From Lentisphaerota bacterium (lineage in GTDB: Bacteria; Verrucomicrobiota; Kiritimatiellia; UBA8416; VGWI01): a DNA stretch of 60,471 nucleotides. The position numbers were made by a program, and so were the translations under genes. Numbering within the stretch: position 1 is the stretch's first letter; every line of letters begins with the position of its first letter. The notes under the pieces are model-generated. The model saw only the letters and a list, made by a program, of their open reading frames with translations. It ran no database searches and was not told the origin of the DNA. Below, in pieces: positions 1-28,679 of this stretch. The stretch is from positions 1-60,471 of the forward strand of contig VGWI01000006.1 in the NCBI GenBank assembly GCA_016873655.1. Reading direction: 5' to 3'.

Positions 1-446
1 ATCATGTGGAAGATGCCGCGGTGGCCGGCGGAGATCAGCGTGAACCCGTAGCCGGAAAACGTGAACGCCAGCGCCGGCAGGAACGCCGCCGTTCCGCGGT
101 ACCCCCGCCCGCGCAGGAAATACAACACCGCCAGGAAGAGCGCCAGTGTATCCACCATGAACATGGCCGGATTCCAGATGTTCGGAGGAAGGCCTATGGC
201 CAGCAGCGACTGGGGCAGGAACGGCGCGCCGCCGCCCCCGATCCCCGCCAGATCCCACGCCCACGCCCCCCAGAGGGAGAGCAGGTTCTGCGCCTGGAAA
301 TCGCGCGGGTATACCGCCGCGTTGTCGCCCGACGCCAGGGTCCCGCCTGAAAACAGCGGACCGCTGAAGACCCAGAGGAGAACGGCTGTGACGACCGCGG
401 CATGGAACCATGCCGTACCAGTAATACGCCGCAGGAGTGGTTTCAT
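1..446 (-). CDS. N-terminal part of a multi-spanning membrane protein (YfhO-like), runs off window start
   Basis: This gene is not in the ORF track in its own frame because it has no stop inside the window. Read on the minus strand from the ATG at 446 it is open to base 1, giving about 148 residues. It starts with MKPLLRRITG, has a first membrane helix at about residues 15-32, then a loop with GDNAAVYPRDF and a second hydrophobic block from about residue 95. The order of one helix, a loop carrying an acidic residue, then helices resembles YfhO-type and GT-C glycosyltransferases that use lipid-phosphate sugars. It sits 42 bp downstream of another membrane protein on the same strand, so the two are probably co-transcribed. 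The family assignment is tentative; that it is a membrane protein is clear. Confidence 0.6.
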   Translation of the reverse strand, partial: MKPLLRRITGTAWFHAAVVTAVLLWVFSGPLFSGGTLASGDNAAVYPRDFQAQNLLSLWGAWAWDLAGIGGGGAPFLPQSLLAIGLPPNIWNPAMFMVDTLALFLAVLYFLRGRGYRGTAAFLPALAFTFSGYGFTLISAGHRGIFHM

Positions 447-488
447 TGGCCTGACCTTATCCCTGTGGCCGCGGGAAATGCAAGAAGG

Positions 489-2270
489 TCAGCGGCCATC
501 AGGCGCTTCCCCGCCCGGCACAAGTATCTCGAAACCCTCGTTGCTCCACGCAACACGGTAGGCGTGGCGGAGCAGAAACGCGTCCATGTACTTGCGGCCC
601 TCAATGTGCCGCATCCGCTGCGACCTCTCCACCGCCGCGGACCCGGCCGGCCACATTGTGCTGCACGGATCGCCATTCGCGCGTACCACCACCGGCAGCG
701 GCAACCCGTCCAGTTCCGCCTGCTCAAGAGCCCGGCCAAGTACCTCTGGCCTTTTCACCAGCGGCCACGGCCCCCGCGCATAGGGGCGGGTGCGGGTGAT
801 GAAATGGAGCAGCGGCACATGCTCAAACGCGATCATGTACTCATTCGGCTGCACACGCGAATCCAGTTCCGCAAGCAACTCATTCAGGACCCGCGCTCTT
901 TCCGGTGTTGTGCGTATTCCCCGCAGCATCGGATGGTTCACCGCGGCAGTCAGCCGGAACCTGTTGGGGCAGTCCCTGTAGACACCGACAAACGCGTTGT
1001 AGACGGCGCAAACAACCAGAACGGAGATCCCCAGCGCGACGGCGAATGACGCACCACGCGGATCCATGCGCCGAAGCAGGCGCGGCGCAGGCGCCTGTCT
1101 AGCGGCAAGGAAGACAATCGGCGTGGCCAGCCAGACCGCAAACACGGCGTTGTTCATGCCGTTCCCGCTGCCCAGCGGCACCAGAAAGACCTGCAGGGCG
1201 GCAAGAAACGCGGCCAGCCGCAGCTCCGGCGGCGCCCCGCAACAACCTGCGGCCACCCCGCCCGCCGCGACGTAGCAGATTCCCGCCCACGTATAGGTAA
1301 TCACCGAAAACCCGTATATGAACGGGAAGGCGGCAAAAAACGCCAGGCACCCCGCCGACACGAATGCAAACATCACGCGCCGCGCATGAACCCCTGCCGC
1401 GGCAGCCGCACGCGAGAGCAGCGTCACCGCCACAACGACAACTCCCGCCAGGCCAAGAGCCATCGCATGGTCAGTGACAAGGCGCAGAGCCATGAAGCCG
1501 GGCACATAGAATTTGTCGTAGTGAGCAGTCGGGCTCGGCCCCATTTCGTTGACAATGCTGGCCCACACAACAGGGCCGTGTCCGCACAGGAGTATCGCGG
1601 CAACAACCGATCCCAGCCCGGCAACCCAACCTGCCGCAAAACGGACCGTTTGCGGCAGCGCGTCACGCAGCCTCCCGCCGCAGAGCAGCGCGTGGAAGGG
1701 TATTCCGAGCGCCAGCGCGGCCCCGACGGCGTTGGGTAGCCTGAGGAACACGCTCGCGCCAATGAGGAAGCCCGCCACATACATCAGGAGTCTGGAGCCC
1801 GCCGGAACGCCCCTGACCAACGCAAGCGCGCTGAGAAGGAAGAACAACGACGTAAGCGCGTTGTAGCTGAGGAAATGCGACCCGCCGCGCAGTATCAACA
1901 CCATGGTCAGCAGCAAGCCAGGCAGCAGAATACGCTGCGGCACATGCCGCCTGAGAGCAGCGTTGGCAGCCACGGCGCACAGACCGTAGCCGACAACAGA
2001 CCCGAGACGCGCTCCGACAAGCCCGAAACTTTCCGTCAGCGTGAGCCAGACCGCGTTGATGAGGTTTGCAAGCCACATGAGGGACCGGAACTCCACGCTC
2101 ACGGGATCGCTGAAGAACTGCTGATGCATGGAAAGCAGGACGCCCGTGTCAGTGAAATCTATCCCCTGCCATGCAAAGAGGGCGGGATACCCGAGTATCA
2201 GCACCCACATGGCGAACGCAAAGCGCCTGTCCATGGCCGCCGCGGATCCATCGCTCGTTCCCGCGCTCAC
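489..2270 (-). CDS. Polytopic membrane protein, probable GT-C-type glycosyltransferase
   Basis: 593 residues with about ten hydrophobic segments through residue 430, then a soluble C-terminal region of about 150 residues. An early periplasmic loop carries DFTDTG just after the first helix, the place where GT-C enzymes keep their acidic catalytic residue. The start is taken as GTG at 2270 because it overlaps the TGA of the upstream radical SAM gene by 4 nt (GTGA), which implies translational coupling; a downstream in-frame ATG gives MDRRFAF, 12 residues shorter. The likely role is transfer of a sugar from a polyprenyl-phosphate donor on the periplasmic side, inferred only from topology and the surrounding glycan genes. 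Confidence 0.65.
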   Translation of the reverse strand: MSAGTSDGSAAAMDRRFAFAMWVLILGYPALFAWQGIDFTDTGVLLSMHQQFFSDPVSVEFRSLMWLANLINAVWLTLTESFGLVGARLGSVVGYGLCAVAANAALRRHVPQRILLPGLLLTMVLILRGGSHFLSYNALTSLFFLLSALALVRGVPAGSRLLMYVAGFLIGASVFLRLPNAVGAALALGIPFHALLCGGRLRDALPQTVRFAAGWVAGLGSVVAAILLCGHGPVVWASIVNEMGPSPTAHYDKFYVPGFMALRLVTDHAMALGLAGVVVVAVTLLSRAAAAAGVHARRVMFAFVSAGCLAFFAAFPFIYGFSVITYTWAGICYVAAGGVAAGCCGAPPELRLAAFLAALQVFLVPLGSGNGMNNAVFAVWLATPIVFLAARQAPAPRLLRRMDPRGASFAVALGISVLVVCAVYNAFVGVYRDCPNRFRLTAAVNHPMLRGIRTTPERARVLNELLAELDSRVQPNEYMIAFEHVPLLHFITRTRPYARGPWPLVKRPEVLGRALEQAELDGLPLPVVVRANGDPCSTMWPAGSAAVERSQRMRHIEGRKYMDAFLLRHAYRVAWSNEGFEILVPGGEAPDGR

Positions 2271-3817
2271 CGGTCCGCCGCCCTTCGAGCGTCATGCGCA
2301 ACCCGTGGCCTTGATACCGGGACGTCCCTCAAGTTGTCGGACTTGAAATCATGGGAAGGCCACTCCTCACGGAATGCGTATTCAGATGAGGTCCGCGTGC
2401 GCGCCGAGGAAGAGACCATGGCTGCGAACCCGCGCATGTCTTCCGCGAATTCCCCCGTCCTTATCCCCCGCACCAGACGACGCCACAGGAAGGCGGGGTT
2501 CATATAGAAAGCCCTCTTGTAGAAGAGGTCGTAATGACGCTCTATCGCTTCCCACGAAAGAGTCGGATGATCACAAATGGGCCGCGTGTTGTACACGTCG
2601 TACAGATCCCAGTCATACGACTTTATGCGGCCGAGACGACGGAAGTCGGAAAACATCTTCGAGCCCGGAAGCGGCACCGTGACACCGCACCTCATCATGT
2701 CAAGCGGCAGACTCCGGGCATATTCGATCGTGTCCTTCATGGATGCCTCCGTGTCGCCGGAAAGACCAACCATGAACATCCCGAACGTGTCGAGCCCGGC
2801 CGCGCGCGCCATCCTCACCGCTTCCCTGCCCTGCTCAAGTGTTGCCTTACCGCCCTTGCCGAACCCTTTCAATACCTCGTCATTGCCCGATTCGAATCCG
2901 AAATGAACCCGGTAACAGCCGGCGCGGCGCATGCTCCTGAACAGTGACGGACGCGCGCTGTCAACCCTGATCCCGTTCGAGCATGTCCACGCCATGCGGA
3001 TGCCGCGGCTCGATATCGCATCGCACACCGATTCCGCCCAGTCGTTGTGCGAAGTGAAGATATCGTCCGCAAGAAGCGCTTCGCGGAAACCCAAACGGTA
3101 CAGGGCCTCCATCTCCTGCGCACAGCGTTCCGGCGATTTCCGCCGCAGGCCGAACCCCACGGTGTTCTTGCTTCCGCAGAAATCGCACTTGAAGACACAC
3201 CCGCGCGAGAACTCGATCATCGAAGCAGGCGGGTGCTTCACAAGCAACCGGCTGCACCTGGACTTGTATTCATCCGCGTTGTACAGGTCCCAGGCCGGCA
3301 TCGGCAAATCGTCAAGATGCCCCACAAGCGGCCGCGGGGGGTTCATCACCGTCGCGTCCCCGTCGCGACGGCACACGCCGGCGATGCCCTTGAGATCCGC
3401 CCCCGAGGCCACCTCGGCGAAGGTTTCGTCGCCCTCGCCGTAGACAACGCAGTCGAGCATGGACTCGCAGAGCGTTTCCTCGGGCAAGGCGGAAGGATGC
3501 GGCCCGCCGCCAACCAGCAGGATCCCGCGGGAGATGCCCTTGATGAGACACGACATGTCGCGCAACTGGTTCATGAGCGGCGTGGCCGCCGTGATCCCCA
3601 CCACATCCGGCTTCCATCCGACAACATGCCGGCGGACCTCGTCAGCCCGGTAGTCGCGGTAGGACAAGTCCAGGATCCGGACCTCGTTCCCGGCCCTGCG
3701 CGCCGTCGCGGCAACGGCGGCGAGCCCAAGGGTCGGGAACACCGGGACAACCGCACCCGCGCGGGTTGCGTGGTAGACGCGGGAATAGGACGGATTGACA
3801 AGCAGTACCCTGGCCAC
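2267..3817 (-). CDS. B12-binding-domain radical SAM protein
   Basis: 516 residues. The N-terminal Rossmann-like domain (about 1-140) is of the cobalamin-binding type, with ARVLLVNPS at its start and LVGGGPHPS in the middle. The radical SAM core follows with C207-x3-C211-x2-C214, which binds the [4Fe-4S] cluster. The DxHxxG cobalamin-ligand motif is absent. A start is possible at GTG 3847 (ten residues longer); GTG 3817 is preferred because AGGGG lies 5 nt upstream and the cysteines then fall at the same residues as in the divergent paralogue. Family members do SAM-dependent radical chemistry such as methylation of unactivated carbons; the substrate here is unknown. Its stop overlaps the start of the membrane protein at 2270. 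Confidence 0.9.
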   Translation of the reverse strand: MARVLLVNPSYSRVYHATRAGAVVPVFPTLGLAAVAATARRAGNEVRILDLSYRDYRADEVRRHVVGWKPDVVGITAATPLMNQLRDMSCLIKGISRGILLVGGGPHPSALPEETLCESMLDCVVYGEGDETFAEVASGADLKGIAGVCRRDGDATVMNPPRPLVGHLDDLPMPAWDLYNADEYKSRCSRLLVKHPPASMIEFSRGCVFKCDFCGSKNTVGFGLRRKSPERCAQEMEALYRLGFREALLADDIFTSHNDWAESVCDAISSRGIRMAWTCSNGIRVDSARPSLFRSMRRAGCYRVHFGFESGNDEVLKGFGKGGKATLEQGREAVRMARAAGLDTFGMFMVGLSGDTEASMKDTIEYARSLPLDMMRCGVTVPLPGSKMFSDFRRLGRIKSYDWDLYDVYNTRPICDHPTLSWEAIERHYDLFYKRAFYMNPAFLWRRLVRGIRTGEFAEDMRGFAAMVSSSARTRTSSEYAFREEWPSHDFKSDNLRDVPVSRPRVAHDARRAADR

Positions 3818-3849
3818 GCAGACCCCTGTTCCATGGAACGGTTGCACAC

Positions 3850-3869: not shown

Positions 3870-4019
3870 TGTGAGAGCGTAACCTCTATTGCCGAGACCG
3901 GTCAAGAATCAGGCCGCTTCAACCATAACTGCTCACCCGCGCCGCTCGTTGTTGCGATTTGACTGTCATCTGCGGATGTGCGACTTTGCGGCGTTTGTCG
4001 CTACCTTGTGCGAGGCGCC

Positions 4020-5432
4020 ATGAGCAGGAACATCCTCTTCGTCATTCCGGACGAGAGAGAAGTGTACAGACACGTAAGTGTCAAAGTCGGAGCCTTCCAT
4101 CTGCCGTCTCTCGCCTTTGCCATCCTCGGGGCAATAGCCAGAGATCATGGCTGGAGAGCTTCCATTCTCGATCTTTCGATCGAGAAGGACGGAGTCAAGG
4201 CAATGGAAGCCGCTCTCCGTGATTCTGAACCAGAATATGTTGGCATCACCTGCACCAGCGCGTCCTACCATCAGTGCCTCAGCATCGCAGCCCACGTCAG
4301 GCGCATGCTGCCTTCTGCCGTAGTTCTGGCCGGCGGAACCCACGTAAGCTCGCTGCCTGAAGACTCCCTGGCCTCCGGCTTGCTGGACTATGTCTTCGTC
4401 GGCGAAGCGGATGTTTCCTTTGCGAAGTTTCTCGACGGCGTCCCTCCCGAGACAATCGAGGGCATCGCCTTCCGTGACCCAGGCGGCAATGTAAGGATAC
4501 AGCCGCATTCAGCCTTCCTGACCGATTGGGCACAGTCACCGATTCCAGACTACAGTCTCTACGATTTGGGCCGTTACCACATCTCACGCATTCAGGCGCG
4601 AAGGAATCCTGTTGTGTGGATAGAGACAAGCCGCGGATGTCCTTACGATTGCCAGATCTGCAACAAGGTAGTTCACGGACGCACCTTCCGGCCCAAGGAT
4701 GTGGCCCGTGTTATTGAAGAAGTGTCCTGCCTGGCGAGTAGTGGCGTTCGCGAGTTCCACATCGCGGATGATGGGTTCACCACGGACATGAACCGTGCTG
4801 AAGCCATCTGCGACGAGATCATCTCCGCCGGGATGGATGTTTCATGGTCATGCCTGAACGGGATCAGGGTCGACAGAGTCTCGGAAAACCTTCTGACCAA
4901 GATGCGCAGGGCCGGGTGCTACCGTGTATCCATGGGAATCGAAAGCGGAAGTCAGAAAGTCCTCGACTCCTTGGGAAAAGGAACAACTCCAGACCAGATA
5001 AGGTCGGCAGTCAGGTGGGCGAAGAGAGCGGGCCTTGAGACTTTCGGGTTCTTTATGTTCGGGAATCCGGGCGAGACGGAAGACACCATGAAGGAGACCA
5101 TTGACTTTGCCTGTACACTTCCTCTGGATCTGGCAAAGGCGAGCATAGTCATGCCATTCCCGGGCTCTCCCTTGCATGACCGCTACTCCGCCATGGGGTT
5201 GATACTCCCTCAAAAGAACAACTACCGTGATTACAACGTCTACGGTTCTGCCGGCAGCGTATACCGACACCCCAGCCTGCCGTGGGAGCTGGTTGAGAAA
5301 TACCAGAAGGCTTTCTATCGTGCCGTCTATCTGCGGCCCGGCTACATGGCAAGGCGTCTCGCTCACTCGGTTCGAACTGGCTCTCTCTTCGCCGATATCA
5401 TCGCAGCCGCCGGAATGAAATGGTTCGGCTGA
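4020..5432 (+). CDS. B12-binding-domain radical SAM protein, divergent paralogue
   Basis: 470 residues. The start is the ATG at 4020 (MSRNILFVIP), with GAGG just upstream; the track start at 3978 adds 14 residues without similarity to the family. A cobalamin-type Rossmann domain (about 1-140) contains VVLAGGTHVSSLPE. The radical SAM cysteines are C207, C211 and C214, identical in position to the leftward neighbour. The two proteins share NGIRVD, MRRAGCYRV, IESG and the C-terminal layout to the end, so they are paralogues. No DxHxxG motif is present. Codon use looks less GC-rich than in the flanking genes. The 3' end overlaps the SPASM radical SAM gene by 13 nt, implying coupled expression. 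Confidence 0.9.
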   Translation: MSRNILFVIPDEREVYRHVSVKVGAFHLPSLAFAILGAIARDHGWRASILDLSIEKDGVKAMEAALRDSEPEYVGITCTSASYHQCLSIAAHVRRMLPSAVVLAGGTHVSSLPEDSLASGLLDYVFVGEADVSFAKFLDGVPPETIEGIAFRDPGGNVRIQPHSAFLTDWAQSPIPDYSLYDLGRYHISRIQARRNPVVWIETSRGCPYDCQICNKVVHGRTFRPKDVARVIEEVSCLASSGVREFHIADDGFTTDMNRAEAICDEIISAGMDVSWSCLNGIRVDRVSENLLTKMRRAGCYRVSMGIESGSQKVLDSLGKGTTPDQIRSAVRWAKRAGLETFGFFMFGNPGETEDTMKETIDFACTLPLDLAKASIVMPFPGSPLHDRYSAMGLILPQKNNYRDYNVYGSAGSVYRHPSLPWELVEKYQKAFYRAVYLRPGYMARRLAHSVRTGSLFADIIAAAGMKWFG

Positions 5433-6742
5433 GCTCTCGACAACTGAAAATGTTCACTGCGTCAACAAAACTATCTATCTTGAAAGCTGTGCTGACGAAA
5501 CGCAGCCCGTACTACATCCAGTTCTACATCACCGGCCGGTGCCCGTTCCGCTGCAGGATGTGCAACATCGTCGAGACAAACTCGGCATTGCGGGAGGCAT
5601 CACTCGACGATATGCGGGCGATCGCCTCGAACATCCGCCGGATCGGTGGCGGCATAGTGCTCCTCACCGGCGGCGAACCGTTTGTCCGCCAGAATTTGCC
5701 GGACATCGTCCGGGCGTTCCTTGCCGAAGGGCTCGATGTGAGGCTGCAGACAGCCGGCATCGCCACGGATGAACAGCTACAGGCCGTTTACGACGCCGGC
5801 GCGCGGGACATCAACGTGTCGCTGGACTCGCTGGACGAGGCAAGGCAGGACTACATAAACGCAGTTCCCGGCTCCTGGCACAGGGCAATTGACTGCCTTG
5901 AAAGGATTTCAGCCATATTCGGGAGGAAGTCAGCCATAACCAGCCTCGGCTGCGTCCTGTCCAGTTTCAACTTCCGCGAGATACCTTCGATCCTGGAATT
6001 CGCCACGGCGATCGGTTGGCACCTCTCGCTCGTTCCCGTCCACATAGCCCCGGCCGGCAAACGGCTCGGGTTCCGCAGTTTCGACGGGGATTTCCTGTTC
6101 AGTAAGGAGGAACTCCCGGAGCTGGAACAGGTGATGGGAAAGCTCGTAAGGATGAAGAAGGCCGGGGCGCTGTTGTTCGATTCAGAACGTTACCTGAAAA
6201 GCGCCTTCAGTTTCCTTGCCGGAAACCCGCCGACATGGCGCCACAAGGGAGTATGCGACGCGCCGGACCTCTACTTCGCTGTCAGGCCGAATGGCGACAT
6301 GTCGGTCTGTTGCGATCATATGCTCGATCCGGGCCCGCCATCATTGCTGTCGCCTGCATTTGCCGCGGACTTCCGTTCGGGCAGAATACGCGCGCGATGC
6401 AAACCCGTCACGACACGCTGCAAAGGCTGCCATTACGGGTCATACCCGGAAGTCACCCTGTCCGTCCGCGATCCGAGAGCCTTCGCAGAGAGAGTCAGGC
6501 TCGCTCTCTCGCCCGGACGGAGCCGGATTCGTATGCCCGCCGGACATGGCGACTTCTTCCGCATCGCGGGGGAAACCCGCGCCCGCTCGCCGGGTGTCTA
6601 CGGTCCGTCCGCGACAGACCGTCATTCGGAACGAGTCAGACAATGGTCCGACCCGGCGGCAAGACGCGCGATCCAGGAGGCGGACGCCGAACGAAGGCGA
6701 GTGGAAGGACGGCTCAGGGCTGCGCAGGATCGGTCCGCCTAA
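5420..6742 (+). CDS. Radical SAM protein with SPASM-like C-terminal cysteines
   Basis: 440 residues. The radical SAM motif C41-x3-C45-x2-C48 is near the N-terminus, followed by the SAM-contacting LLTGGEPF at about 81-88. A second cysteine set (C279, C297, C298, C327, C334, C337) fits a SPASM or twitch domain that holds extra Fe-S clusters, with GDMSVCC as its central strand. SPASM enzymes include peptide maturases and sugar or aminoglycoside dehydrogenases. No precursor peptide is visible nearby, so a small-molecule or sugar substrate is more likely here. The last 90 residues are polar and Arg-rich without a recognised fold. An internal ATG at 5450 is an alternative start. The stop converges on the next gene with a 4-nt overlap. 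Confidence 0.85.
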   Translation: MVRLSSRQLKMFTASTKLSILKAVLTKRSPYYIQFYITGRCPFRCRMCNIVETNSALREASLDDMRAIASNIRRIGGGIVLLTGGEPFVRQNLPDIVRAFLAEGLDVRLQTAGIATDEQLQAVYDAGARDINVSLDSLDEARQDYINAVPGSWHRAIDCLERISAIFGRKSAITSLGCVLSSFNFREIPSILEFATAIGWHLSLVPVHIAPAGKRLGFRSFDGDFLFSKEELPELEQVMGKLVRMKKAGALLFDSERYLKSAFSFLAGNPPTWRHKGVCDAPDLYFAVRPNGDMSVCCDHMLDPGPPSLLSPAFAADFRSGRIRARCKPVTTRCKGCHYGSYPEVTLSVRDPRAFAERVRLALSPGRSRIRMPAGHGDFFRIAGETRARSPGVYGPSATDRHSERVRQWSDPAARRAIQEADAERRRVEGRLRAAQDRSA

Positions 6743-8445
6743 CGCATGTTCCGCATCAGCTCGCGCCACAGCAAAGCGCGAGGTCTCCCCGGCAGAACAG
6801 CGGTGACGGCGATCAGCAATCGGGATCTCCAACCGATCACGATATCCATGCTCCCCTTGTCCCAGGCGTCCAGAGCCGCGCGCGCAACTGCGTCGGGCGA
6901 CATCAACCCCTTGCCGTCATTGAGAACCCGAACACCCGCCGCGCGCTGGAAACCTGTAAAGGTGCCGGAAGGGCTGACGCAAGTAACCGTCACTCCTGTT
7001 CCGCGCGTCTCCGCCCACAGCGAGCGCGAGAAACTGAGCACGCCGGCCTTGCTTGCTCCGTAAACCGACATGCCGGGCAGCGGCACGGAGGCAATGCTGG
7101 ACGCGATGTTGAGTATGCGGCCCGATCCGTGGCGCAGCATGTCGGGAAGAAACAACCTGGTCAGCGCAACAGTTGCGAGGAGATTGACGCGGAGTATCTC
7201 CTCTGCCCTGTCCGGCGGATGTTTCACCAACCCTCCGCGAAATCCCAGGCCGGCGTTGTTGACGAGCCCGAACACGGGCTCGCCTTGATCCCTGACCCAT
7301 TCGAATACCCGGCGCGAAGCGCCTGGGTCAGAAAGGTCGGCGTGGAACGCTTTCCCGCCCGTTTCGGCAGCCAGGCGCGCAAGCCCGGCTGCATCGCGGT
7401 CCACGAGATAGAGCTTTCCGCCTCGCAAGGCGAGTTGGAGCGCCATCGCCCTGCCTATCCCCCCCGCCGCGCCGGTAATCAGAACGCGGCCGTCGCGGAA
7501 CCCCTGGAACCAGGCCACGGTCTCCCGCAGCCCGTCTTCGAAACGAACGCGCGGCTCGTAGCCAAGCGCACGCAGTTCGTCGCCGGTGCATACAAGCACA
7601 TCGCCGGCAAGGCATCTTGCCGTGAACGGGATCACGCCGCGCACGGCGTGGAGCAGCCGGAACATGGGCCGGGCAGGGAAGACCATGCCTCGATTCCCCT
7701 TCCCCAGCGCCGCGCGAATCAGTCCGAACATCTCGCCGAATGAACGCGGCTCCCCGTCGCTTGCGAACACAGTGACACGCCGCTCGCCCCGCCGGACCAG
7801 GTGCGCCAGAAAGCCCGCCATGTCCTCAACATGGATAACCGAAACCCGCCCTGCGAAACCGATTCGCGTGATGACGCCGCCGTTCAGCGCATCAAGTATG
7901 AAAGCCGCCATGTGCGAACCCGGCCTCATTCCCGGGCCGTAAACCCACGACGGACGGACTATGACCCACGGCAGCCCGGACGCGGCCACGAGCCGTTCAC
8001 ATTCCAGTTTGGAGCGGCCATAGGCCGATTGTGGATGACATGGGGACGCGCCGGTCAATGGGTTTCTGCACGGGTCCCACGGCGCCCTGTCAACCGCGCC
8101 GATCGTGCTGGTGAACACAAACAGCTTGAGGATCTTCGACTCACTCGCGACACGCATCAACCCGCGCGTTGCCTCAACATTGTTGCGCCCGTAATCGAGT
8201 CGCTTGCCGAAAACCGCCAACGCCCCCAGATGGAAAACCGTTTCCGCGGCCAGCAGTTCCTCGCGGTAGGCATCGGTGTCCAACAGGTCGCCCTGCACCA
8301 CGTTGAAACCACGCGCTCTCAGCTCCGCAGCAGCGGACGGGTCTCTCACGAGACACGTCACGGACCCGGCGCCGTACTCGCCGGCGAGTTTCCGGCACAG
8401 CGCAGATCCGATGAACCCGCCGGCGCCGGTAACGAACACTCTCAT
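6739..8445 (-). CDS. Fused NAD-dependent epimerase and short-chain dehydrogenase
   Basis: 568 residues holding two complete nucleotide-binding oxidoreductases. Residues 1-315 are an extended SDR of the epimerase/dehydratase type: GAGGFIG at 7-13 and catalytic Y142-x3-K146. Residues 319-568 are a classical SDR: GAAGGIG at 325-331, NNAG at 396-399, Y462-x3-K466. The start is ATG 8445, with GGAGG 9 nt upstream; the track start at 8505 runs through the end of the preceding methyltransferase and is not credible. The fusion suggests two successive steps on one substrate, for example dehydration or epimerisation and then ketoreduction of a nucleotide sugar or lipid. Such a two-domain fusion is uncommon, and the substrate is not deducible. 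Confidence 0.88.
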   Translation of the reverse strand: MRVFVTGAGGFIGSALCRKLAGEYGAGSVTCLVRDPSAAAELRARGFNVVQGDLLDTDAYREELLAAETVFHLGALAVFGKRLDYGRNNVEATRGLMRVASESKILKLFVFTSTIGAVDRAPWDPCRNPLTGASPCHPQSAYGRSKLECERLVAASGLPWVIVRPSWVYGPGMRPGSHMAAFILDALNGGVITRIGFAGRVSVIHVEDMAGFLAHLVRRGERRVTVFASDGEPRSFGEMFGLIRAALGKGNRGMVFPARPMFRLLHAVRGVIPFTARCLAGDVLVCTGDELRALGYEPRVRFEDGLRETVAWFQGFRDGRVLITGAAGGIGRAMALQLALRGGKLYLVDRDAAGLARLAAETGGKAFHADLSDPGASRRVFEWVRDQGEPVFGLVNNAGLGFRGGLVKHPPDRAEEILRVNLLATVALTRLFLPDMLRHGSGRILNIASSIASVPLPGMSVYGASKAGVLSFSRSLWAETRGTGVTVTCVSPSGTFTGFQRAAGVRVLNDGKGLMSPDAVARAALDAWDKGSMDIVIGWRSRLLIAVTAVLPGRPRALLWRELMRNMR

Positions 8446-8449
8446 GAGC

Positions 8450-9298: not shown

Positions 9299-9375
9299 AT
9301 CCGGATTCCCCGCCCGACCGATTGAGGCCGAAGCGTCCCATATTTCATGGACTGCGTCAAACCGCGGCGGCTACG

Positions 9376-20132: not shown

Positions 20133-21419
20133 ATGAGCAGACACCCGCCACCCGCCCGGTTTGACGGCGTATCCGTGCTCGTTCTCTGCCACGCAAACAG
20201 GATGGACGGACGGCGCGTCTCGGGGTCGGGACCGATTGACCCGCTTCTTTCGTATTTTTTGACCCGCGGCGCGCGCGCCGTGGCGATAGTCGAGCAGCCA
20301 CACCCGCATGCGCATACCCAGATCGAATGCACTCTTGAGATTCACAGGCCGGGCAAGAACACCGAGACAGTCGTCCACAACGGGCACCGGCGGTTCTGGT
20401 TCATCCCTCCTGAAGAGAGAAAGGACAGGACATACCTGCGGCTCAAACTTCGTGACATTCTCGCGGCATTCCACTTCTTCGCGTTCCTGCGCAAGACCGC
20501 CCCGGACGTTCTTCCCATTGACTACGTCTTCGCAGTCGAGTCCCTGAACGTTCTCATTGCGGCAACGGCCAAACGCCGGCTCGGGGCCAGGAGCATCATC
20601 TACTACATCTTCGACTGGGCTCCGCGGCGGTACGCGAGCAACCTGGTGAACCGGCTGTATCTGTGGCTTGACCGCATGGCATGCCGTTCCGCCAACTGGA
20701 TATGGAACATAAGCCCGCGCATCGCCCGTGCAAGGGCCGGCATGGCCGGCTACGCGGCGAATCTCATAGCACCGCAGGTCTCCGTGCCGTTCGGCGCTGA
20801 CTTCCGCCCGGCTGCCGACCGGCCCGATTCCGGGTCGGCTTCTCCGAGGGTTCTGTACAGCGGCGGCCTGATCCGCGAAACCGGCGCTCGATTCCTGCCC
20901 GATATCGCAAGACTACTGTGGAGATCAAACCCGGCGGTCACACTGGTCGTTGCCGGCGAGGGCGACCTGTTTACCGAAGAGACCGTCCGTTCTCTTGCGG
21001 AAGAGGGAGTGAAGAACATCGACTTCCGGGGCTACATACCCGACAGGCCTTCGATGGACGCGCTCGCATGTTCCTGCGACATAGGGCTTGCTCCGTACCC
21101 GGATGTCCAGTTCTCGACAAAACCGTATGTGGATGTGAGCAAAGTCAGAACTTACTTCGCATGCGGCCTGCCGGTGGTCTGCACCGACGTTGTTGCTGTG
21201 TCCGACGAGATATCCGCGAACGAACTCGGACTCGTCTGCCGGCCGGACCCACGCGCCATATCGGACACCGTGATCCGCCTCTGTACGGACACGGCGCTCC
21301 GCGCCCGCTGCCGCTCCAACGTTCTCGCAATCGCCAGACACGGCTCCTGGCAACACGTCTTCGACCGCGCTTTTGAGGCGATGCACGCTCAGCGCGCAGG
21401 AGCCAGCGTTTCGCGGTAG
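20133..21419 (+). CDS. Family 4-like glycosyltransferase (GT-B)
   Basis: 428 residues from ATG 20133; the track start uses a TTG 12 codons earlier. The GT-B fold shows an N-terminal domain with GPIDPLLSYFL and a C-terminal domain with RVLYSGGLI, LVVAGEGDL, FRGYIPD and DIGLAPYPD, the usual nucleotide-sugar pocket. KVRTYFACGLPVVCTD is the donor-binding helix. It is expected to add one sugar to a glycan chain in the cytoplasm. The 3' end overlaps the convergent glycosyltransferase by 31 nt. Confidence 0.85.
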   Translation: MSRHPPPARFDGVSVLVLCHANRMDGRRVSGSGPIDPLLSYFLTRGARAVAIVEQPHPHAHTQIECTLEIHRPGKNTETVVHNGHRRFWFIPPEERKDRTYLRLKLRDILAAFHFFAFLRKTAPDVLPIDYVFAVESLNVLIAATAKRRLGARSIIYYIFDWAPRRYASNLVNRLYLWLDRMACRSANWIWNISPRIARARAGMAGYAANLIAPQVSVPFGADFRPAADRPDSGSASPRVLYSGGLIRETGARFLPDIARLLWRSNPAVTLVVAGEGDLFTEETVRSLAEEGVKNIDFRGYIPDRPSMDALACSCDIGLAPYPDVQFSTKPYVDVSKVRTYFACGLPVVCTDVVAVSDEISANELGLVCRPDPRAISDTVIRLCTDTALRARCRSNVLAIARHGSWQHVFDRAFEAMHAQRAGASVSR

Positions 21420-22588
21420 AACTCCGCAAGCGGCGCGCCAAGCTGTTCCCACGAAAGCGCAGACCTTGCCCTCAACGCGGCGGCTTCGAGACGCTCGCGT
21501 TCCGACGTGTCAGCCAGCACTTCAACCGCGCAACGGGCAAGGTCAGGCAGGGAGTCGGCCGTAACAACGCACCCCAGCTCGAGCAGTGTCCGCATGGCCT
21601 CGCTTCCGTTCCGGTTCATGATGATGAACCTGCCGCCGTTCAGGAATGTGCCCACCCTTGTCGGGAAACAGGCGACATCCGGCTTGCTGTCGGACATCAT
21701 GAATATCACGGCATCGCAAGCCCCAAGCTGTAATGACAGGGCCCGGCCCGAGAGATACCCGACATGCCTGATCCGTTCCATCGTGCCGGGACGCAGACGC
21801 TCGCCGCCGCCGTACTTGCCCCACAGTTCATCAGGCGCGATGTTCAGGTGAAGCCGGGCCTCCGGCGCATGCTCGAGAATCATGTCGAACAGCTTGAAGA
21901 GCCAGACCGTCCGCTCCTTGTGGAATGAGTTGCCGAAACTCAGGAATACCGTTTCTTCCTCCGCAATCCCCAGCTCGCGCCGTGCGGCGGACCTGTCCAT
22001 CGCCTCGCACTGCGCGGTATCAACGCCGTTGATTATCTTCACGGTGTGCGTAACGCCCAACCCGGCAAACTCGTCCTTCAAGTACTCGCTCGTGACCGTG
22101 CCGTGCCGCGCCAGACGCTGCACGCGATACTCGCAGAACCGCATGTACCACCGCACCGCCGGATGCTCGAACAGGTTCGGGCTCGGATGCTGCGTGTGCA
22201 CCTCGGTCCAGTAATCGTCCCAGTCCAGCACGACCTTCTTCCACGGCATGAACAGGCGCAGGAACAGGAACGGTACCAGCGTCTCGAACTGGACCACCGT
22301 GAAAACATGTACGATGTCGTAGCGGCCGAACACGGCCATGAACAGACCGATGAACGCGCGCAACAGCCGGCCGTTGATCCACGGGTTCAACTGCAGACGC
22401 GGCAGCTTCACGATTCGCAGGTTCGCGCTCACTGCCGTCTTCTCGCAGCGCGTAACCCACCCGCCACGCGCGGAAATCAGCAACGTTACGTCGAAGCCCC
22501 TGAGCGCAAGCCCGCGCGCCATGCCGAACGCGCGGTAGTAGCCGCCGTAGTTCTCGAAGCAGGGCTCGATCAGGAGCACCCTTGTCAT
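21389..22588 (-). CDS. Glycosyltransferase, GT-B fold
   Basis: 399 residues. The start is ATG 22588, which shares ATGA with the upstream SGNH gene stop and has GGAGG 10 nt before it; the long track ORF is an artefact of that overlap. It opens MTRVLLIEPCFENYGGYYRA, the acceptor-domain start of family 4 enzymes, with DVTLLIS, DIVHVFT and IINGVD. The C-terminal domain has FGNSFHKE, HVGYLSGR and CDAVIFMMSD, followed by FPTRVGTFLNGGRF, which replaces the usual E-x7-E region. It likely adds a sugar in the cytoplasm. Confidence 0.83.
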   Translation of the reverse strand: MTRVLLIEPCFENYGGYYRAFGMARGLALRGFDVTLLISARGGWVTRCEKTAVSANLRIVKLPRLQLNPWINGRLLRAFIGLFMAVFGRYDIVHVFTVVQFETLVPFLFLRLFMPWKKVVLDWDDYWTEVHTQHPSPNLFEHPAVRWYMRFCEYRVQRLARHGTVTSEYLKDEFAGLGVTHTVKIINGVDTAQCEAMDRSAARRELGIAEEETVFLSFGNSFHKERTVWLFKLFDMILEHAPEARLHLNIAPDELWGKYGGGERLRPGTMERIRHVGYLSGRALSLQLGACDAVIFMMSDSKPDVACFPTRVGTFLNGGRFIIMNRNGSEAMRTLLELGCVVTADSLPDLARCAVEVLADTSERERLEAAALRARSALSWEQLGAPLAEFYRETLAPAR

Positions 22589-23730
22589 CGGATCACGTCC
22601 TCCTTCGTTTCCACGCCCGCCGCGCCAGGCAGCACATCGCCGAAGGACTGCGCCAGGAACGCGGCGACGGCGCGCGCCATCGCCAGCGCGCCGTCGGGGT
22701 TGGGGTGATAGTCCAGCGGCGCCAGATACAGCGGCCTGCCCGGCAGCGTGCCGGCGCGCAGCGCGGGCGTCAGATCGAGAAACGGCATCCCTTCCTCTTC
22801 GCACAGGCGCCGCAAACGTTCCTGAATCAGCACCGGAGCGCCCGGCGCGTACAGTTGGAAGTAGGAGGGATGATAGACGAACGCAAGCCGCGCGCCGCGC
22901 GCACGGCAGAAGGCGGCCATCGCGCGCAGACCCGCCTCGTACTTCGTGAGGTTGTCCTCTTCGCGGCGGTCCTCGCGTGTGCCGTAGAAGCCGGCGCACA
23001 CGCCGGAAAAGCGGTCCCTGTAGCGAAGCGCGTTGGCGACGTGGTTCGTGGCGCCGGCGACTTCATAGCGTTCCGGACCGAGCCCGGTGCGCGCCCCGGC
23101 GCGGTAGCTGAGGGATATCCTGGGCATGTAGAGATCGAGCATCGCCTCGCCAAGAGCGGAGCGCGTAACGAACCACTTCACCAGCGCACGCCTTAAACCC
23201 AGAGGGCGCAGCACCGGATCCCGGACCTGCTCGACGGTCAGCGAATCGAGTTCGGCCAGGTCGTTCGCGCAGAACATCAGCACCACTATGTCGGGCTGGA
23301 GCGGCGCGACGACGTCCCGCAACACGGTGAACTCGCCGTCAACCGACATCCCGTGCCTGCCGGCGTTTATCACCTCGACGCCCGGCAGCAGTTCCTGGAG
23401 GCGCGCCGGATAGGTGTCGGGGTTGTCCAGCAGACTCCCGGCCGAGACGGAATCGCCGAGCGCGGCGACCCTGACGCGGCCAGCCGGTTTCGGCGCCTCG
23501 TAGTCCGGCCCGCGCAGCCCGAGCGAGTTGGCGCGGATCAGGTAAGGCACGCTCGACCATGCCATCAGCGTGTCGGCCGATTCCGGGTACAGCCCGTGGC
23601 GGCCGTGGAAGAGACCGGCGAACGTTCCGCGCGGCCTGCCGGCAAAGAGGCGCAACCCGACCTCCATAAGCCCACCGAGGACAACGGCGGAAAGGAGCGC
23701 GACCGTCAGAGAAAGTGTCAAGCGACGCAC
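22585..23730 (-). CDS. SGNH/GDSL-family hydrolase with N-terminal membrane anchor
   Basis: 381 residues from GTG 23730 with GGAG 9 nt upstream. Residues 5-30 form a signal anchor, so the catalytic domain is periplasmic. The SGNH blocks are present: Ser94 in ALGDSVSAG, Asn156 in FCANDLAE, and Asp340/His342 in LDYHPNPDG. Envelope members remove or add acyl groups on polysaccharides (AlgX/AlgJ-like). It is coupled to the glycosyltransferase by a 4-nt overlap, consistent with acyl decoration of the same glycan. Confidence 0.88.
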   Translation of the reverse strand: MRRLTLSLTVALLSAVVLGGLMEVGLRLFAGRPRGTFAGLFHGRHGLYPESADTLMAWSSVPYLIRANSLGLRGPDYEAPKPAGRVRVAALGDSVSAGSLLDNPDTYPARLQELLPGVEVINAGRHGMSVDGEFTVLRDVVAPLQPDIVVLMFCANDLAELDSLTVEQVRDPVLRPLGLRRALVKWFVTRSALGEAMLDLYMPRISLSYRAGARTGLGPERYEVAGATNHVANALRYRDRFSGVCAGFYGTREDRREEDNLTKYEAGLRAMAAFCRARGARLAFVYHPSYFQLYAPGAPVLIQERLRRLCEEEGMPFLDLTPALRAGTLPGRPLYLAPLDYHPNPDGALAMARAVAAFLAQSFGDVLPGAAGVETKEDVIR

Positions 23731-23782
23731 GCGGGAAGACTCCTTCGCAACAGATACCCGAAGATAGGCTGCCCGGCCGCCA

Positions 23783-25852
23783 TCAGCCGCCGCGCGCCAC
23801 CGCGCGATGCCCTACCAGCAGCATCGGCCCGGCCTGCGAAGCCCGGATCGTCACGCGCCTCCAACCGGGCTTGTCAGCCTGGAAAGGTATCTCAATCCTG
23901 CCCAGCTTCAAGTCGAGAACGAACCCGAGGCTGTCGGCAAGGAGGTATTCCGGCGGCGGCACGCCCGGCTTCCAGACGGGGTTCGGGACGCCCACCTGGA
24001 AGCTGAGCCCCGACCCGGACGGAAGATCCAGCACCATCGTCGGCGCCGGCGGCACGGAGACGAGAATACGTTTGCTCCCGTAAGCGAAGATGTCCACCGA
24101 CAGGATGTGGCTTCCGGCTGCGGGCGCGAACACGTCGAACACGAAAGTCTCGCCAACCAGCAACGGACTTGCGGCGGCATTCGCGTCCCGTTGCAGCGCC
24201 AGGGCGAAGGGCGGAACCGGCAGCGACACCGGCGCGCCGGTCGATGCGGCACGGATCTCGAGGTCCCGGCGCGTCGCGTAGGCGATGAAGGATTCCTCCC
24301 CGGGCACGAAGCGGGACGTGTACCCGAGGAACGCGAACCCGATCCGCTGGCACACCGGATACTCGAAGGATCGTACCGTGGGCGCGTAGACGCCGGCCTT
24401 GTCGAATTCATTCCACAAAGTCCTGTGCGAGATGAACGCCACTGCGTCGGGCACCAGGCCCCATATCCGCCTCATGCCCCCGATCCGCTCCTCCTCGCCT
24501 TCCTCCCAGTAGCACGGATAGGTCACGATTCCGCCGCGCGGCACGCTGTAGTAAGTCCCGAGGAACCGCGTCACATACTGGTTGGGGCTGACGACCACCC
24601 GGTTCTCGCCCAGGTCGGCGACGGCCGCGCCTATTGCCTTGTAGGGATGCGACCTGCCCGGCGCCCTGGCAACCACGTACAGCGAGAAGGCGTTCGAGCT
24701 GACAAGACAGGCAAGCGCCACCGCGCCGGCCACGCGGACCCACCCGCGCCGACGCGGCGAAAACAACCAGGCCGCCGCGGCGGACTGGGCGACTATCACC
24801 GGCGCCCACGCATAGAGGTGGTAGGAGATGACCGGCGGCCCGGTCCCGCGCAGCCGGGTGTACATGCGGAAGAGCGCGACGGCCAGCAGCGCAGCCGTCA
24901 ACCACGCCAGCCTGCCGCGTCGCGCGCGGCCCGTCCCTGCCCATGCGTAAATTCCGAACCCCGCCAGCAGGAGCGCAAGCCCGACCCGCGCCGGGTCGCC
25001 GCCGGCAAGGACATGCAGGTTGTCGGACAGGTACCACAGCGCATCGCGCATCGCCGCAGGAAGCAGCGCCCAGTCAATCTCGCGCGAGCCAAGGTGCGAC
25101 TGCACCGCCTGCGCCTTCGCATAGACCGGCGCCGCAAGCGCCATCGGCGGCGCCATCACCAGCGCCCACCGCGCCCATCCGCGCCACATGCCCGGGAAGG
25201 CAGGCGGCGCCAGCGCAACCGCCCAGGCCGCGGCGAGCGCCATCCACACGAACACGCCGGAGAAATGGAAAGAGACCATGCCGAACACGCAGAGCGCCGC
25301 GCCCAGGTTGAAAAGGAAGCCGCGCCGCCTGCCCGGGTCTTCCATCGCTTCGGAGACGAACGCGAAGGCGCCGCCGCTCGCCGCCGCCCAGATTATGTAG
25401 AGGGCCAGTTCGGACGAGTAGTAGAGCAGCAGCGGCTGCGTGCCACCCAGCAGCAGAGCGAGCCATCCGGCGGTGGGCCCGAGCCGCCTGCGCGCGACGC
25501 AGGCGGCGACAGCCAGCAGCGCCGCGCCAAACGCCGCCGAGGCGGCAATCCCGCCCGCCTCCCGCCCGAAGGCGCTAACGAACGGGCGCTGGACAAAGTA
25601 GGCCATGGGCGACTGCGTGCAGAACTGGCGGATATGCTCGCAACGCAGCAGGTCGCGCAGGGACATCTGCTGCGCCCAGACGCGGAGTATCTCGTCGCAC
25701 CACAGCGCCCTTCCGTTAAGGTGCCCGGCGTAGAGCGCGAGGCAGAAATGCGCGGCGACTGCGGCGGCAACGGCCAACGTGAACGGACCGGGAAGCCGCG
25801 GCAAGCGGCGCGCCCGCTGCGTTTCGCGGTGTTTGCGGACGCTTTGTGGCAT
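23783..25852 (-). CDS. GT-C-type glycosyltransferase-like membrane protein
   Basis: 689 residues. A basic N-terminus is followed by a first helix (about 24-43) and a periplasmic loop containing RALWCDEIL, matching the acidic catalytic motif of PMT/ArnT enzymes. About ten further helices run to residue 400. The C-terminal 280 residues are soluble, probably periplasmic, and end in a beta-rich domain with many Val and Pro. The donor is likely a polyprenyl-phosphate sugar. It lies 3 bp upstream of nothing coding on its 3' side and directly follows the acyltransferase gene, giving an almost continuous leftward run from 28679. Confidence 0.8.
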   Translation of the reverse strand: MPQSVRKHRETQRARRLPRLPGPFTLAVAAAVAAHFCLALYAGHLNGRALWCDEILRVWAQQMSLRDLLRCEHIRQFCTQSPMAYFVQRPFVSAFGREAGGIAASAAFGAALLAVAACVARRRLGPTAGWLALLLGGTQPLLLYYSSELALYIIWAAASGGAFAFVSEAMEDPGRRRGFLFNLGAALCVFGMVSFHFSGVFVWMALAAAWAVALAPPAFPGMWRGWARWALVMAPPMALAAPVYAKAQAVQSHLGSREIDWALLPAAMRDALWYLSDNLHVLAGGDPARVGLALLLAGFGIYAWAGTGRARRGRLAWLTAALLAVALFRMYTRLRGTGPPVISYHLYAWAPVIVAQSAAAAWLFSPRRRGWVRVAGAVALACLVSSNAFSLYVVARAPGRSHPYKAIGAAVADLGENRVVVSPNQYVTRFLGTYYSVPRGGIVTYPCYWEEGEEERIGGMRRIWGLVPDAVAFISHRTLWNEFDKAGVYAPTVRSFEYPVCQRIGFAFLGYTSRFVPGEESFIAYATRRDLEIRAASTGAPVSLPVPPFALALQRDANAAASPLLVGETFVFDVFAPAAGSHILSVDIFAYGSKRILVSVPPAPTMVLDLPSGSGLSFQVGVPNPVWKPGVPPPEYLLADSLGFVLDLKLGRIEIPFQADKPGWRRVTIRASQAGPMLLVGHRAVARGG

Positions 25853-25855
25853 GGT

Positions 25856-26512
25856 TCAGCCGGTCTTCCGGAACGATCCGTATGGCTTCACTCCTGTCCG
25901 GTGCGATTCAGGCAAATCAGCGTCCTCGTCAATGTCAACGCACCTGAGAACTCCCGGCGATGTTTCCCTGTAACGGTAGCCGCTTTCAGGACACACCATG
26001 AAACCGTCGTTGTCGGGTTCTCCCAGCCGCTGACCGTGACGGCTCATCCATCCGTCCTGCCTGCCCGGCACGCCCACGACGAGCGCGTAGTCGGCTACGT
26101 TCCGCGTAACCACCGCCCCGGCCGCGATGAAGGCGTACCGGCCGATCTCTATCCCGCATACGATCGTTGCATTCGCCCCGAGCGTCGCGCCACGACGAAT
26201 AAGAGTGCGCTCGTAGAGGGAGCGGCGGCTGATCTGCGCACGCGGATTGGAGACGTTCGTCAGGACGCATGACGGCCCGAGGAAGACGTCGTCCTCGACG
26301 ATCGTCCCTCCGTAGACGGAAACGTTGTTCTGTATTTTGACGCGGCTGCCGATCACCGCTTCGTCCGCGACAAAGACGTTCTGACCCAGCACGCAGTCGT
26401 CGCCTATCACGGCCCCGCGGGAGACATGGCAGAAATGCCATATCCTGGTGTTCCGCCCGACCTTCGCCCCTTCGTCCACGCACGCAGTCGGGTGAGCGAT
26501 GTAGTCCTCCAT
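25856..26512 (-). CDS. Left-handed beta-helix acetyltransferase (WbpD/WlbB-like)
   Basis: 218 residues from ATG 26512, with GGAGG 7 nt upstream; the 375-residue track ORF includes 157 spurious residues. Hexapeptide repeats ([LIV]-G-x4) run from GAKVGRNTRIWHF through VIGDDCVLGQNVFV to LGANATIVCG, the trimeric acyl-CoA transferase fold. HPTACVDEGA at the start and the GVPGRQDGW end match UDP-2-acetamido-3-amino-uronate N-acetyltransferases. The last 50 residues (CPESGYRY) add a small Cys-containing tail typical of this group. It would acetylate an amino sugar before polymer assembly. Confidence 0.87.
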   Translation of the reverse strand: MEDYIAHPTACVDEGAKVGRNTRIWHFCHVSRGAVIGDDCVLGQNVFVADEAVIGSRVKIQNNVSVYGGTIVEDDVFLGPSCVLTNVSNPRAQISRRSLYERTLIRRGATLGANATIVCGIEIGRYAFIAAGAVVTRNVADYALVVGVPGRQDGWMSRHGQRLGEPDNDGFMVCPESGYRYRETSPGVLRCVDIDEDADLPESHRTGVKPYGSFRKTG

Positions 26513-26559
26513 ACCGCTTCCTCCCATTCCAGCGGCGAAGCCGCCGTTCGATTCCCCGG

Positions 26560-27612
26560 CTACGACACGGCGGCGTAGATCTCGCCCAGGATTGCCCTGA
26601 CGTCCCGCGTGAGCCTCCAGCCGGGATAGTGCGACTTGAATTTCTCGACGCTGCTGATCCACCAGATATGGTCGCCTATCCTGTTCTGCTCCACGTAGGC
26701 CAACTTCATTTTCCGCTCGGCCAGCTCTTCGCAGATCGAGATGGCCTCCTTCATCGAACAGTTGCTGAAACGGCTGCCGCCCATGTTGTAGACCTCGCCG
26801 GGCCTGGGATCGCGCCGGAACTCGTCGAAAGCGGCCACAAGGTCCGCGCTGTGTATGTTGTCGCGCACCTGCTTGCCGCCGTACCCGAAGACACGGTATT
26901 CGCGCCCGCCCACCGCGCATTTCATGAGGTAGGAAAGAAACCCGTGCAGCTCGGTCCCGGCATGCGCCGGCCCGGTGAGACACCCGCCGCGGAACACGCC
27001 GGTCTTCATGCCGAAGTACCGGCCGTACTCCTGGACCAGCACGTCGGCGGCCACCTTTGAAGCGCCGAAGAGACTGTGCTTTGTCCCGTCAATGGACATT
27101 GTCTCGTCGATGCCGTGCTCATGGTATGGATGCGATTCGTCCAGCTCCCATCTGGTCTCCAGCTCTACAAGCGGCAGACGGTTCGGCGTGTCGCCGTAAA
27201 CCTTGTTGGTCGACGTGAAAATGAACACGGCCCCTGGGGCGAACTTGCGGGTTGCCTCGAGCATGACGGATGTTCCGTTCGCGTTCACGGTGAAATCCGT
27301 CACGGGGTCCGATGCAGCCCAGTCATGCGACGGCTGCGCCGCGGTGTGGACAACCAGTTCGATGGCCTTCCCGTACTCGGCAAACAGTCCGTCGATGGCC
27401 GCCGAGTCACGGATATCGGCGCCGGCGTGAATGTACGAGGCGTAGTCCGATTCCAGCCTCGCGCGCTGGGCGGCCGTGGAGGCCTCGGCGCCGAAGAACG
27501 CCGCGCGCATGTCGTTGTCTATACCGACGACTGTCCAGCCCTTATCGAGATAGAAACGCGCCGATTCCGAGCCGACCAAACCGCACGAGCCCGTTACAAA
27601 CACAACGCTCAC
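26560..27612 (-). CDS. NAD-dependent nucleotide-sugar epimerase (CDP-paratose 2-epimerase-like)
   Basis: 350 residues. The extended SDR fold starts [14 protein letters not shown], a Gly-rich NAD site. AFFGAEAST in the dinucleotide-proximal loop and [13 protein letters not shown] resemble tyvelose/paratose epimerases. The catalytic YxxxK position is occupied by SLFGASK, with Phe where Tyr is usual, which deserves checking. The start is GTG 27612 in a GTGA overlap with the upstream epimerase gene. It probably acts on a nucleotide-linked sugar that feeds the glycan. Confidence 0.83.
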
Positions 27613-28679
27613 CGATTGACCTCCCCCGCGAGTATCGGCCGGAGTCTATCGCCGTTGTCCTTCAGCCAACAAGCGATATCATCCATGATCCGACCGACCG
27701 AACGCTCGGGACGCCACGCCCATTCGGCCATGGCCCTGCGTGCGTCGGTAATGTAAACCGGGATGTCGCCCTCGCGTACCGCGGGGTCTTCGCCCACAGA
27801 CAGTTCCCTGCCCGTGGCCGCCCTGGCCTGAACAGTCAGCTCCCGCAGCGATGCGCTGACAGCCCGGCCGCCGCCAACGTTCCAGACGCCTCCGTCCCAC
27901 CGGTCCAGGCAGCGCAGTTGCGCGAGAACCAGATCGCCCAGGTCATCAACGTGCAGCATGTCCCTCACCTGGAACCCGCCGTAGCCGATGTAGTTCAGCG
28001 GCAGTCCGTAGTGGTGGGCGGCGACCCACAGCGTCGTGACGCCCTGATCCGCGCGCGCCATCTGCCACGGGCCGGCAATCACGCCGCACCGGTCAATCAG
28101 CGTCTTCAGACCGAAATGGGCGGCGTATTCGCTCACCATGACTTCCGAGGCGAACTTCGTCGCACCGTACAGGGTACGCGCCCCGTCGAGCGGGAACTCT
28201 TCCGAAATGCCTTCCGGCCCCGCGCCGGGCATTTCCTGCTCCCCGGCGATCTCGAACCTGTTCTTCGCACGGTCCAGCTTTATCCGGCGCAGAAGCTCCA
28301 CCGGATAAACCCGGCTGGTCGAAATGAACAGAACCGCCGCGCCCCATTCCCGCGCCGCTTCCAGCACGTTGAGCGTGCCCCCCAGATTCGTGTCCACCAC
28401 ATACCGGGCATCGCCCGCCCGGCCGGCAGTGACCGAGGGCTCGGCAGCCGCGTCAATCACCAGATCGCACGGCGCCATACCGAAGGCCGACCTGTCACGC
28501 ACGTCGCCCATGACAAAAGTGACCCCGCGCCCGACAATACGGTCGCGGTTCAACTCCGACCCGCGCCTGTACAGGTTGTCGAGCGCAAGAATTTCGGCGT
28601 CCGGATGCCCGGCGCGGATCCGCAATGCAAGCGAAGACCCGACGAAACCCGCCCCGCCGGTAATGAGCACCCTTTTCAC
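27609..28679 (-). CDS. NAD-dependent epimerase/dehydratase
   Basis: 356 residues from GTG 28679 ([16 protein letters not shown]); the track start is 37 codons upstream without family similarity. GGAGFVG binds [13 protein letters not shown] contributes the catalytic Ser and Thr, and [10 protein letters not shown] is Y-x3-[16 protein letters not shown] is the usual substrate-lid region of UDP- or CDP-sugar epimerases. It is similar in layout to the next gene and coupled to it by GTGA. It is the promoter-proximal gene of the leftward run that continues through the acyltransferase. Confidence 0.87.

Follow-up and report, generated by a model that had tools for sequence, protein, structure and literature searches.

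Radical SAM enzymes that act on sugars are known mainly from antibiotic pathways. Two of these enzymes, the cytosylglucuronate decarboxylase BlsE and the TDP-amino-sugar deaminase DesII, use sugar nucleosides or nucleotides as substrates, while PqqE, SkfB, and other SPASM enzymes use peptides. Members of the GtrB/Sll0501 family attach a sugar to polyprenyl phosphate (PMC4728340). In the three-component pathway, such a carrier-bound sugar is synthesised, modified by epimerases, flipped, and taken as donor by a GT-C enzyme (PMC11127046). Several radical SAM genes have also been described in a single glycan locus: the plasmid-borne LOS locus of Brachyspira hyodysenteriae contains at least six of them (PMC4267127).

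The DNA analysed here, a window of 60,471 nucleotides, is one contig (C6) from a genome of 3.08 Mb in 243 contigs. A sequence-only reading had singled out the first 28 kb as a glycan-type locus unusually rich in radical SAM genes. We find that this stretch is a mosaic surface-glycan locus and that its heart is a mobile cassette of five genes (5420–11285): a SPASM radical SAM enzyme (rSAM3), two fused SDR domains (SDR-SDR), two methyltransferases (MT1 and MT2), and GtrB.

Composition of the locus

Most of the genes listed in the sequence-only reading were confirmed by Pfam: three B12-binding radical SAM proteins, the SPASM radical SAM protein, two methyltransferases, an AsnB-like protein, an ATP-grasp protein, a PHP phosphoesterase, GT2 and GT4 enzymes, and epimerases. 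The genes that it called NodB, Wzx, and GT-C are present as well, but their labels found no support in Pfam or NCBIfam. These labels rest on size, position, and first-loop motifs (FTDTG, WCDE), with six to nine predicted transmembrane segments in the membrane proteins; we regard all of them, including both GT-C assignments, as probable.

Position 1 is a contig end (G000:C6:1), and the left part of the locus falls outside the assembly; no Wzy was identified in the window, from which the contig's left end is missing. At 489–2270 (minus strand) lies the gene for a putative GT-C-type membrane glycosyltransferase (GTC1) with nine predicted transmembrane segments, the loop-1 sequence WQGIDFTDTG, and no Pfam match. 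Its AF2 model (pLDDT 48) is too poor to confirm a GT-C fold, and its relatives were found in two genomes, at loci that do not carry the cassette. Beside it are two paralogous B12-binding radical SAM genes (36% identity): rSAM1 (2267–3847, minus; PF02310 and PF04055) and rSAM2 (3978–5432, plus; Pfam B12-binding and Radical_SAM), the latter having its best relatives at 39–40% identity. The third such gene, rSAM4 (17519–18976, plus), has the same two Pfam domains as rSAM2. Assignment of rSAM1, rSAM2, or rSAM4 to the HpnJ or BchE B12-radical SAM families was rejected, as the best scores were 157–190 bits against cutoffs of 481–578. Elsewhere, too, B12-radical SAM genes form arrays, with three to four members each (L083, G023:C254; L100/L101, G082:C25); these have a distant SPASM relative of rSAM3 (32–33%) within about 10 kb and carry no MT1, SDR-SDR, or GtrB.

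To the right of the cassette stands a series of genes, of which the AsnB-like, ATP-grasp, PHP, and NodB-like ones are passengers. The AsnB-like protein (11368–13050, plus; PF00733) is missing about 48 N-terminal residues, among them the Cys2 glutaminase nucleophile: it begins MHASV, its residue 69 aligns to model position 117, and only nine more residues are open upstream. An AsnB-type glutamine amidotransferase was therefore rejected as its identity. Next to it we read a C-terminal fragment of a beta-phosphoglucomutase-like HAD phosphatase (13112–13444, minus), which lies directly behind an in-frame stop and is a decayed gene. It is followed by an ATP-grasp protein of the PRK12767/PRK06849 type (13465–14613, minus; PF15632 and NCBIfam), a PHP-domain phosphoesterase (14610–15281, minus; PF02811 and PF13263), the probable NodB-like deacetylase (15278–16060, minus), so labelled by the look of its sequence with the start motif EITHDVDHLGF, and a Wzx/MATE-like polytopic membrane protein (16066–17451, minus) with eight predicted transmembrane segments. 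The remaining glycan genes (19074–28790) comprise a GT2, two GT4, a GDSL esterase, the second GT-C-like protein (23783–25852; no Pfam or NCBIfam match), a WbpD/WlbB-like hexapeptide acyltransferase, and two epimerase/dehydratases (26560–28790). Relatives of the epimerase Epi1, at 51–54% identity, adjoin the cassette in three other loci (L115, L123, L125). Farther along the window we observed an adjacent pair of aspartate/ornithine carbamoyltransferase-like genes that differ in strength of match (36738–38939, minus) and a circularly permuted YpsA SLOG domain fused to a Mut7-C RNase domain (42920–43942, plus).

A 16-kb span of the window contains four radical SAM genes, and the genome as a whole has 41 radical SAM matches. 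When 41 points are placed at random, the chance that the best cluster holds at least four in 16 kb is about 4%. The richness in radical SAM genes that had drawn attention to the locus is thus real but only mildly unusual, has its precedent in B. hyodysenteriae (PMC4267127), and is weak evidence by itself; the excess over chance resides in the conserved gene neighbourhood.

Members of the cassette

rSAM3 (5420–6742, plus; PF04055, E 5e-23) has the radical SAM cysteines C41, C45, and C48 (CxxxCxxC), which are invariant in 29 sequences, and five C-terminal cysteines (C279, C297, C298, C334, and C337) that are invariant in 29 relatives and mark it as a SPASM/Twitch-type enzyme. The solved folds nearest to its AF2 model (pLDDT 90) are those of BlsE, PqqE, SkfB, MoaA, and DesII. 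BlsE is the closest by both sequence and fold; identity to BlsE and DesII is 18% or less. Because PqqE and SkfB act on peptides, the fold alone leaves the substrate of rSAM3 unfixed; we count the proximity of BlsE and the high rank of DesII, both of which act on sugars, in favour of a sugar. Several narrower identities were rejected. Scores fell below the curated thresholds for BlsE (TIGR04466; 53.2 bits vs. a cutoff of 400) and the MoaA GTP cyclase (78.7 vs. 284). The match to prokaryotic viperin (pVip) covered residues 33–187 only (44.7 bits) and was not full-length; the PADLOC matches to viperin, mad2, and PDC-M51A reflect partial superfamily similarity, and a defence-gene reading was dropped.

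SDR-SDR (6739–8445, minus; PF01370 and PF00106), one of two cassette members unrecognised in the sequence-only reading, joins an extended SDR, epimerase/3beta-HSD-like, to a classical SDR. Its start was placed at MRVFVTGAGG, and the Rossmann glycines and YxxxK are intact in both domains of nearly all relatives. The other unrecognised member, GtrB (10299–11285, minus; PF00535), had been taken for a generic GT2; it belongs to the GtrB/Sll0501 family (PgfS, E 4e-74; PDB 5ekp GtrB, E 7e-82), to which it aligns over residues 16–317 with IDGDLQDPPE present. The DxD motif is kept in all of its relatives except one (L108).

MT1 (8450–9298, minus; PF08241) is a SAM-dependent methyltransferase with the signature YNPxINxYRR...VRTxDEHPL and a C-terminal hydrophobic region that is conserved in a 25-member alignment. 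Across 388 genomes of the phylum its occurrence is all-or-nothing: it is found at E<1e-109 or is absent. Seven of these genomes carry it, four of them together with rSAM3. Of the three that have MT1 without rSAM3, two (G153 and G244) also lack GtrB, and in the third (G357) MT1 is accompanied by GtrB, an aminotransferase, and a short radical SAM protein other than rSAM3. The operon of this last genome (L147, G357:C40, 3832–10784) is a variant that consists of an MT-GT2 fusion, a radical SAM protein of 218 aa, a class III aminotransferase, a 540-aa protein with no Pfam match, GtrB, and MT1. The fifth member, MT2 (9292–10347, plus; PF13489), is a zinc-ribbon methyltransferase and an accessory one; its WHSLEH motif and zinc-ribbon are mostly kept among relatives.

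Recurrence and linkage of the cassette

With an alignment of rSAM3 as query, 84,980 species genomes were scanned, and 27 loci at 41–63% identity emerged. Exact matches to two short rSAM3 peptide patterns were required; the family is thus under-sampled, and the linkage rates below could shift with a fuller survey. With one further locus (L098), 28 loci chosen by rSAM3 alone were counted. Near rSAM3 we found MT1 in 24 of the 28 (at least 50% coverage), GtrB in 23, SDR-SDR in 17, and MT2 in 12–13; the trio of rSAM3, MT1, and GtrB occurs in 21, and all five genes in at least nine, with some absences explained by short contigs (L111, L114, L117) and the number of independent loci somewhat lowered by close relatives (L105/L109 and L117/L121/L128). 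All five are additionally carried by G056, where a contig break splits them. By submitter labels, the hosts include Verrucomicrobia/Opitutaceae, Myxococcales, Bacteriovoracaceae, Gemmatimonadota, Acidobacteria, Spirochaetaceae, proteobacteria, the candidate-phyla bacteria Shapirobacteria and Parcubacteria, and the archaeon Candidatus Methanoperedens, at whose locus (L127) GtrB had no match. Nearly all of the loci are metagenome-assembled, and some contigs could be misbinned; the cassette itself was read from single contigs.

True orthologs of rSAM3 occur in three further genomes of the same class (62, 61, and 41% identity), accompanied by SDR-SDR, MT1, GtrB, and MT2; in G043 this group is ordered and oriented as in the window, and in G056 it is divided by the contig break. 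L096/L103 share with the window the order and orientation rSAM3> <SDR-SDR <MT1 ... <GtrB, the proteins being 61, 52, 57, and 42% identical. As controls, we took 23 loci picked via other genes of the window or other radical SAM clusters of the same genome: none has rSAM3, MT1, MT2, or SDR-SDR, and GtrB gave only two weak, partial matches. Plasmid searches with rSAM3, MT1, and rSAM2 returned generic relatives only. When the ORFs of the loci were clustered without guidance, the five cassette families ranked at the top, along with generic epimerases. In 26 of 29 loci, the cassette has a large polytopic membrane protein no more than 11 kb away. In L148 this protein adjoins the cassette and is a PMT_2-type GT-C, and several of these proteins have a first-loop F[TN]DE motif that resembles the window's FTDTG. 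On a Shapirobacteria contig (L112), a SAM synthetase gene (7871–8968) lies two genes upstream of rSAM3 and possibly supplies SAM to the SAM-dependent enzymes.

Could the whole 28 kb instead form one pathway? The sequence-only reading had proposed a joint system in which the radical SAM pair, the AsnB-like and ATP-grasp proteins, and the flippase recur together, and the corresponding pathway would use these and the PHP protein to make an amidated, C-methylated glycolipid. When the co-occurrence check was run, no locus combined them. Relatives of the B12-radical SAM, ATP-grasp, PHP, NodB, and Wzx proteins are absent from all 27 rSAM3 loci, and an AsnB-like relative is present in a single one (L113; the others are in G382 and G101). 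Loci anchored on AsnB, ATP-grasp, or B12-radical SAM relatives do not have the remaining flagged genes together, the AsnB, ATP-grasp, and rSAM2 relatives each having a different neighbourhood. Both amide-forming candidates are also rare: outside its own genome the ATP-grasp protein has weak counterparts in few of 95 relative genomes (29% identity or less), and close full-length relatives of the AsnB-like protein in two of the 388 phylum genomes besides its own. The HAD remnant beside the ATP-grasp gene suggests decay. Still, the genes are contiguous in the window, one ATP-grasp locus (L060) has a B12-radical SAM gene nearby, and a decayed ortholog of rSAM1 (72% over 39 aa) lies beside MT2-GtrB-MT1-SDR in G056 (L148, G056:C46, about 7459–7650), implying that a linkage with rSAM1 existed there and that rSAM1 can be dispensed with. 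As a conserved system the 28-kb pathway is largely refuted, and we consider it very improbable; the B12-radical SAM, AsnB-like, ATP-grasp, PHP, and NodB genes look like separate glycan functions that share the locus. The broader idea of a surface-glycan-type locus with radical SAM chemistry fared better, as its SPASM enzyme does recur with partners.

Two gene fusions and the protein trees bear on whether these partners cooperate. A Parcubacteria locus (L126) has rSAM3 and an extended SDR in one ORF, with the classical SDR as the next gene, and in Shapirobacteria GtrB and MT1 share one frame (L108, 13802–15556). The GtrB half of the latter lacks the DxD, GDFR, and RFxRG motifs that all other members keep; it may be a pseudoenzyme that acts as a membrane platform. 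A 1166-aa frame around rSAM3 in L123 was rejected as a fusion, its upstream part being low-complexity, high-GC sequence. Tree distances of rSAM3 correlate with those of MT1 (r = 0.79, n = 23), SDR (0.57), and GtrB (0.44), with none of 2000 permutations as high; the MT2 distances showed no significant correlation with those of rSAM3 or MT1. The five families could, in principle, merely travel together by transfer among glycan loci without sharing a pathway. Gene order does differ between loci, MT2 or SDR-SDR is missing from a third to half of them, and the three genomes that have MT1 without rSAM3 point the same way. Two independent fusions, the correlated trees, and the absence of the cassette from control glycan and radical SAM loci all argue against so loose an association, which strikes us as quite unlikely. 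Together, the fusions and the correlated trees support one functional unit, and the five-gene set is well supported as a conserved one.

A proposed function and its relation to known systems

The product of the cassette is probably an unusual, chemically remodelled sugar on cell-surface glycans. With moderate confidence, we lean towards a three-component (GtrB/GT-C) glycan side-chain system extended by a radical-SAM/SDR/methyl module for remodelling of the sugar donor. This model builds on the observed gene set, its recurrence, the fusions, the intact catalytic motifs, and the correlated evolution. From what is known of its family and from its DxD motif, GtrB would transfer a sugar from a nucleotide donor to polyprenyl phosphate. 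The 5'-deoxyadenosyl radical of rSAM3 would take a hydrogen from the sugar, on its nucleotide or lipid carrier, so as to oxidise, epimerise, deoxygenate, or decarboxylate a position beyond ordinary SDR chemistry. The keto-sugar so formed would then be reduced or epimerised by the two SDR domains and methylated by MT2 and by MT1, whose C-terminal region probably associates it with the membrane. After flipping, a GT-C enzyme would install the remodelled sugar on an extracytoplasmic glycan. We infer the sugar as substrate, the order of the steps, the lipid-linked stage, and the final product. A more specific version, in which the radical SAM enzyme, the SDR pair, and the methyltransferases remodel the sugar while it is bound to polyprenyl phosphate, ahead of its installation by the GT-C enzyme, would make the cassette a widespread, undescribed pathway; we offer it tentatively, as the less probable case.

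The conserved hydrophobic region of MT1 also suits a different substrate: the cassette might modify polyprenyl or another membrane lipid, which GtrB would then glycosylate. The N-terminal SDR domain resembles 3beta-HSD/male-sterility folds, and distant relatives include radical SAM enzymes from the synthesis of hopanoids and tetraether lipids. However, the best structural neighbour of rSAM3 is a sugar-nucleoside enzyme, the loci are surrounded by nucleotide-sugar and glycosyltransferase genes, and the unguided clustering did not highlight any prenyltransferase or acyl-chain gene. Modification of a lipid thus appears unlikely to us.

If remodelling of a sugar donor is correct, the cassette points to an uncharacterised class of surface sugars. 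It ties a radical SAM enzyme to a polyprenyl-phosphate sugar synthase in hosts whose labels range from Verrucomicrobia through candidate-phyla bacteria to an archaeon, and is a compact gene set that is testable in one host. Curated families and full-text literature searches, limited to open-licence papers and hence weak evidence of absence, returned no description of the five-gene set.

Among known systems, that of B. hyodysenteriae, compared here by the paper's gene description only, is alike in that several radical SAM genes share a surface-glycan locus with glycosyltransferase, epimerase, and HAD genes (PMC4267127). BlsE and DesII resemble rSAM3 in the ways given above; they are distant from it in sequence and come from antibiotic clusters, not from GtrB-bearing glycan loci. 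The GtrA/GtrB/Gtr(GT-C) and polyprenyl-phosphopentose systems (PMC11127046; PMC4728340) share with the cassette a GtrB-family synthase, associated epimerase or reductase genes for varying the sugar, and a neighbouring membrane protein that looks like a GT-C. The cassette goes beyond them with its radical SAM enzyme, its fused SDR domains, and its one or two methyltransferases. We identified no GtrA in the window, whose only candidate for a dedicated flippase (GtrA or MATE) is the Wzx-like protein. The three-component logic (PMC11127046) is the nearest described model with lipid-linked donors. The epimerisation of decaprenyl-phosphoribose by DprE1/DprE2 (cited in PMC11127046) is likewise an SDR-partnered redox remodelling of a sugar borne on polyprenyl phosphate, a parallel drawn as an analogy: DprE1 is a flavoenzyme, whereas in the cassette the chemistry may be initiated by a radical SAM enzyme.
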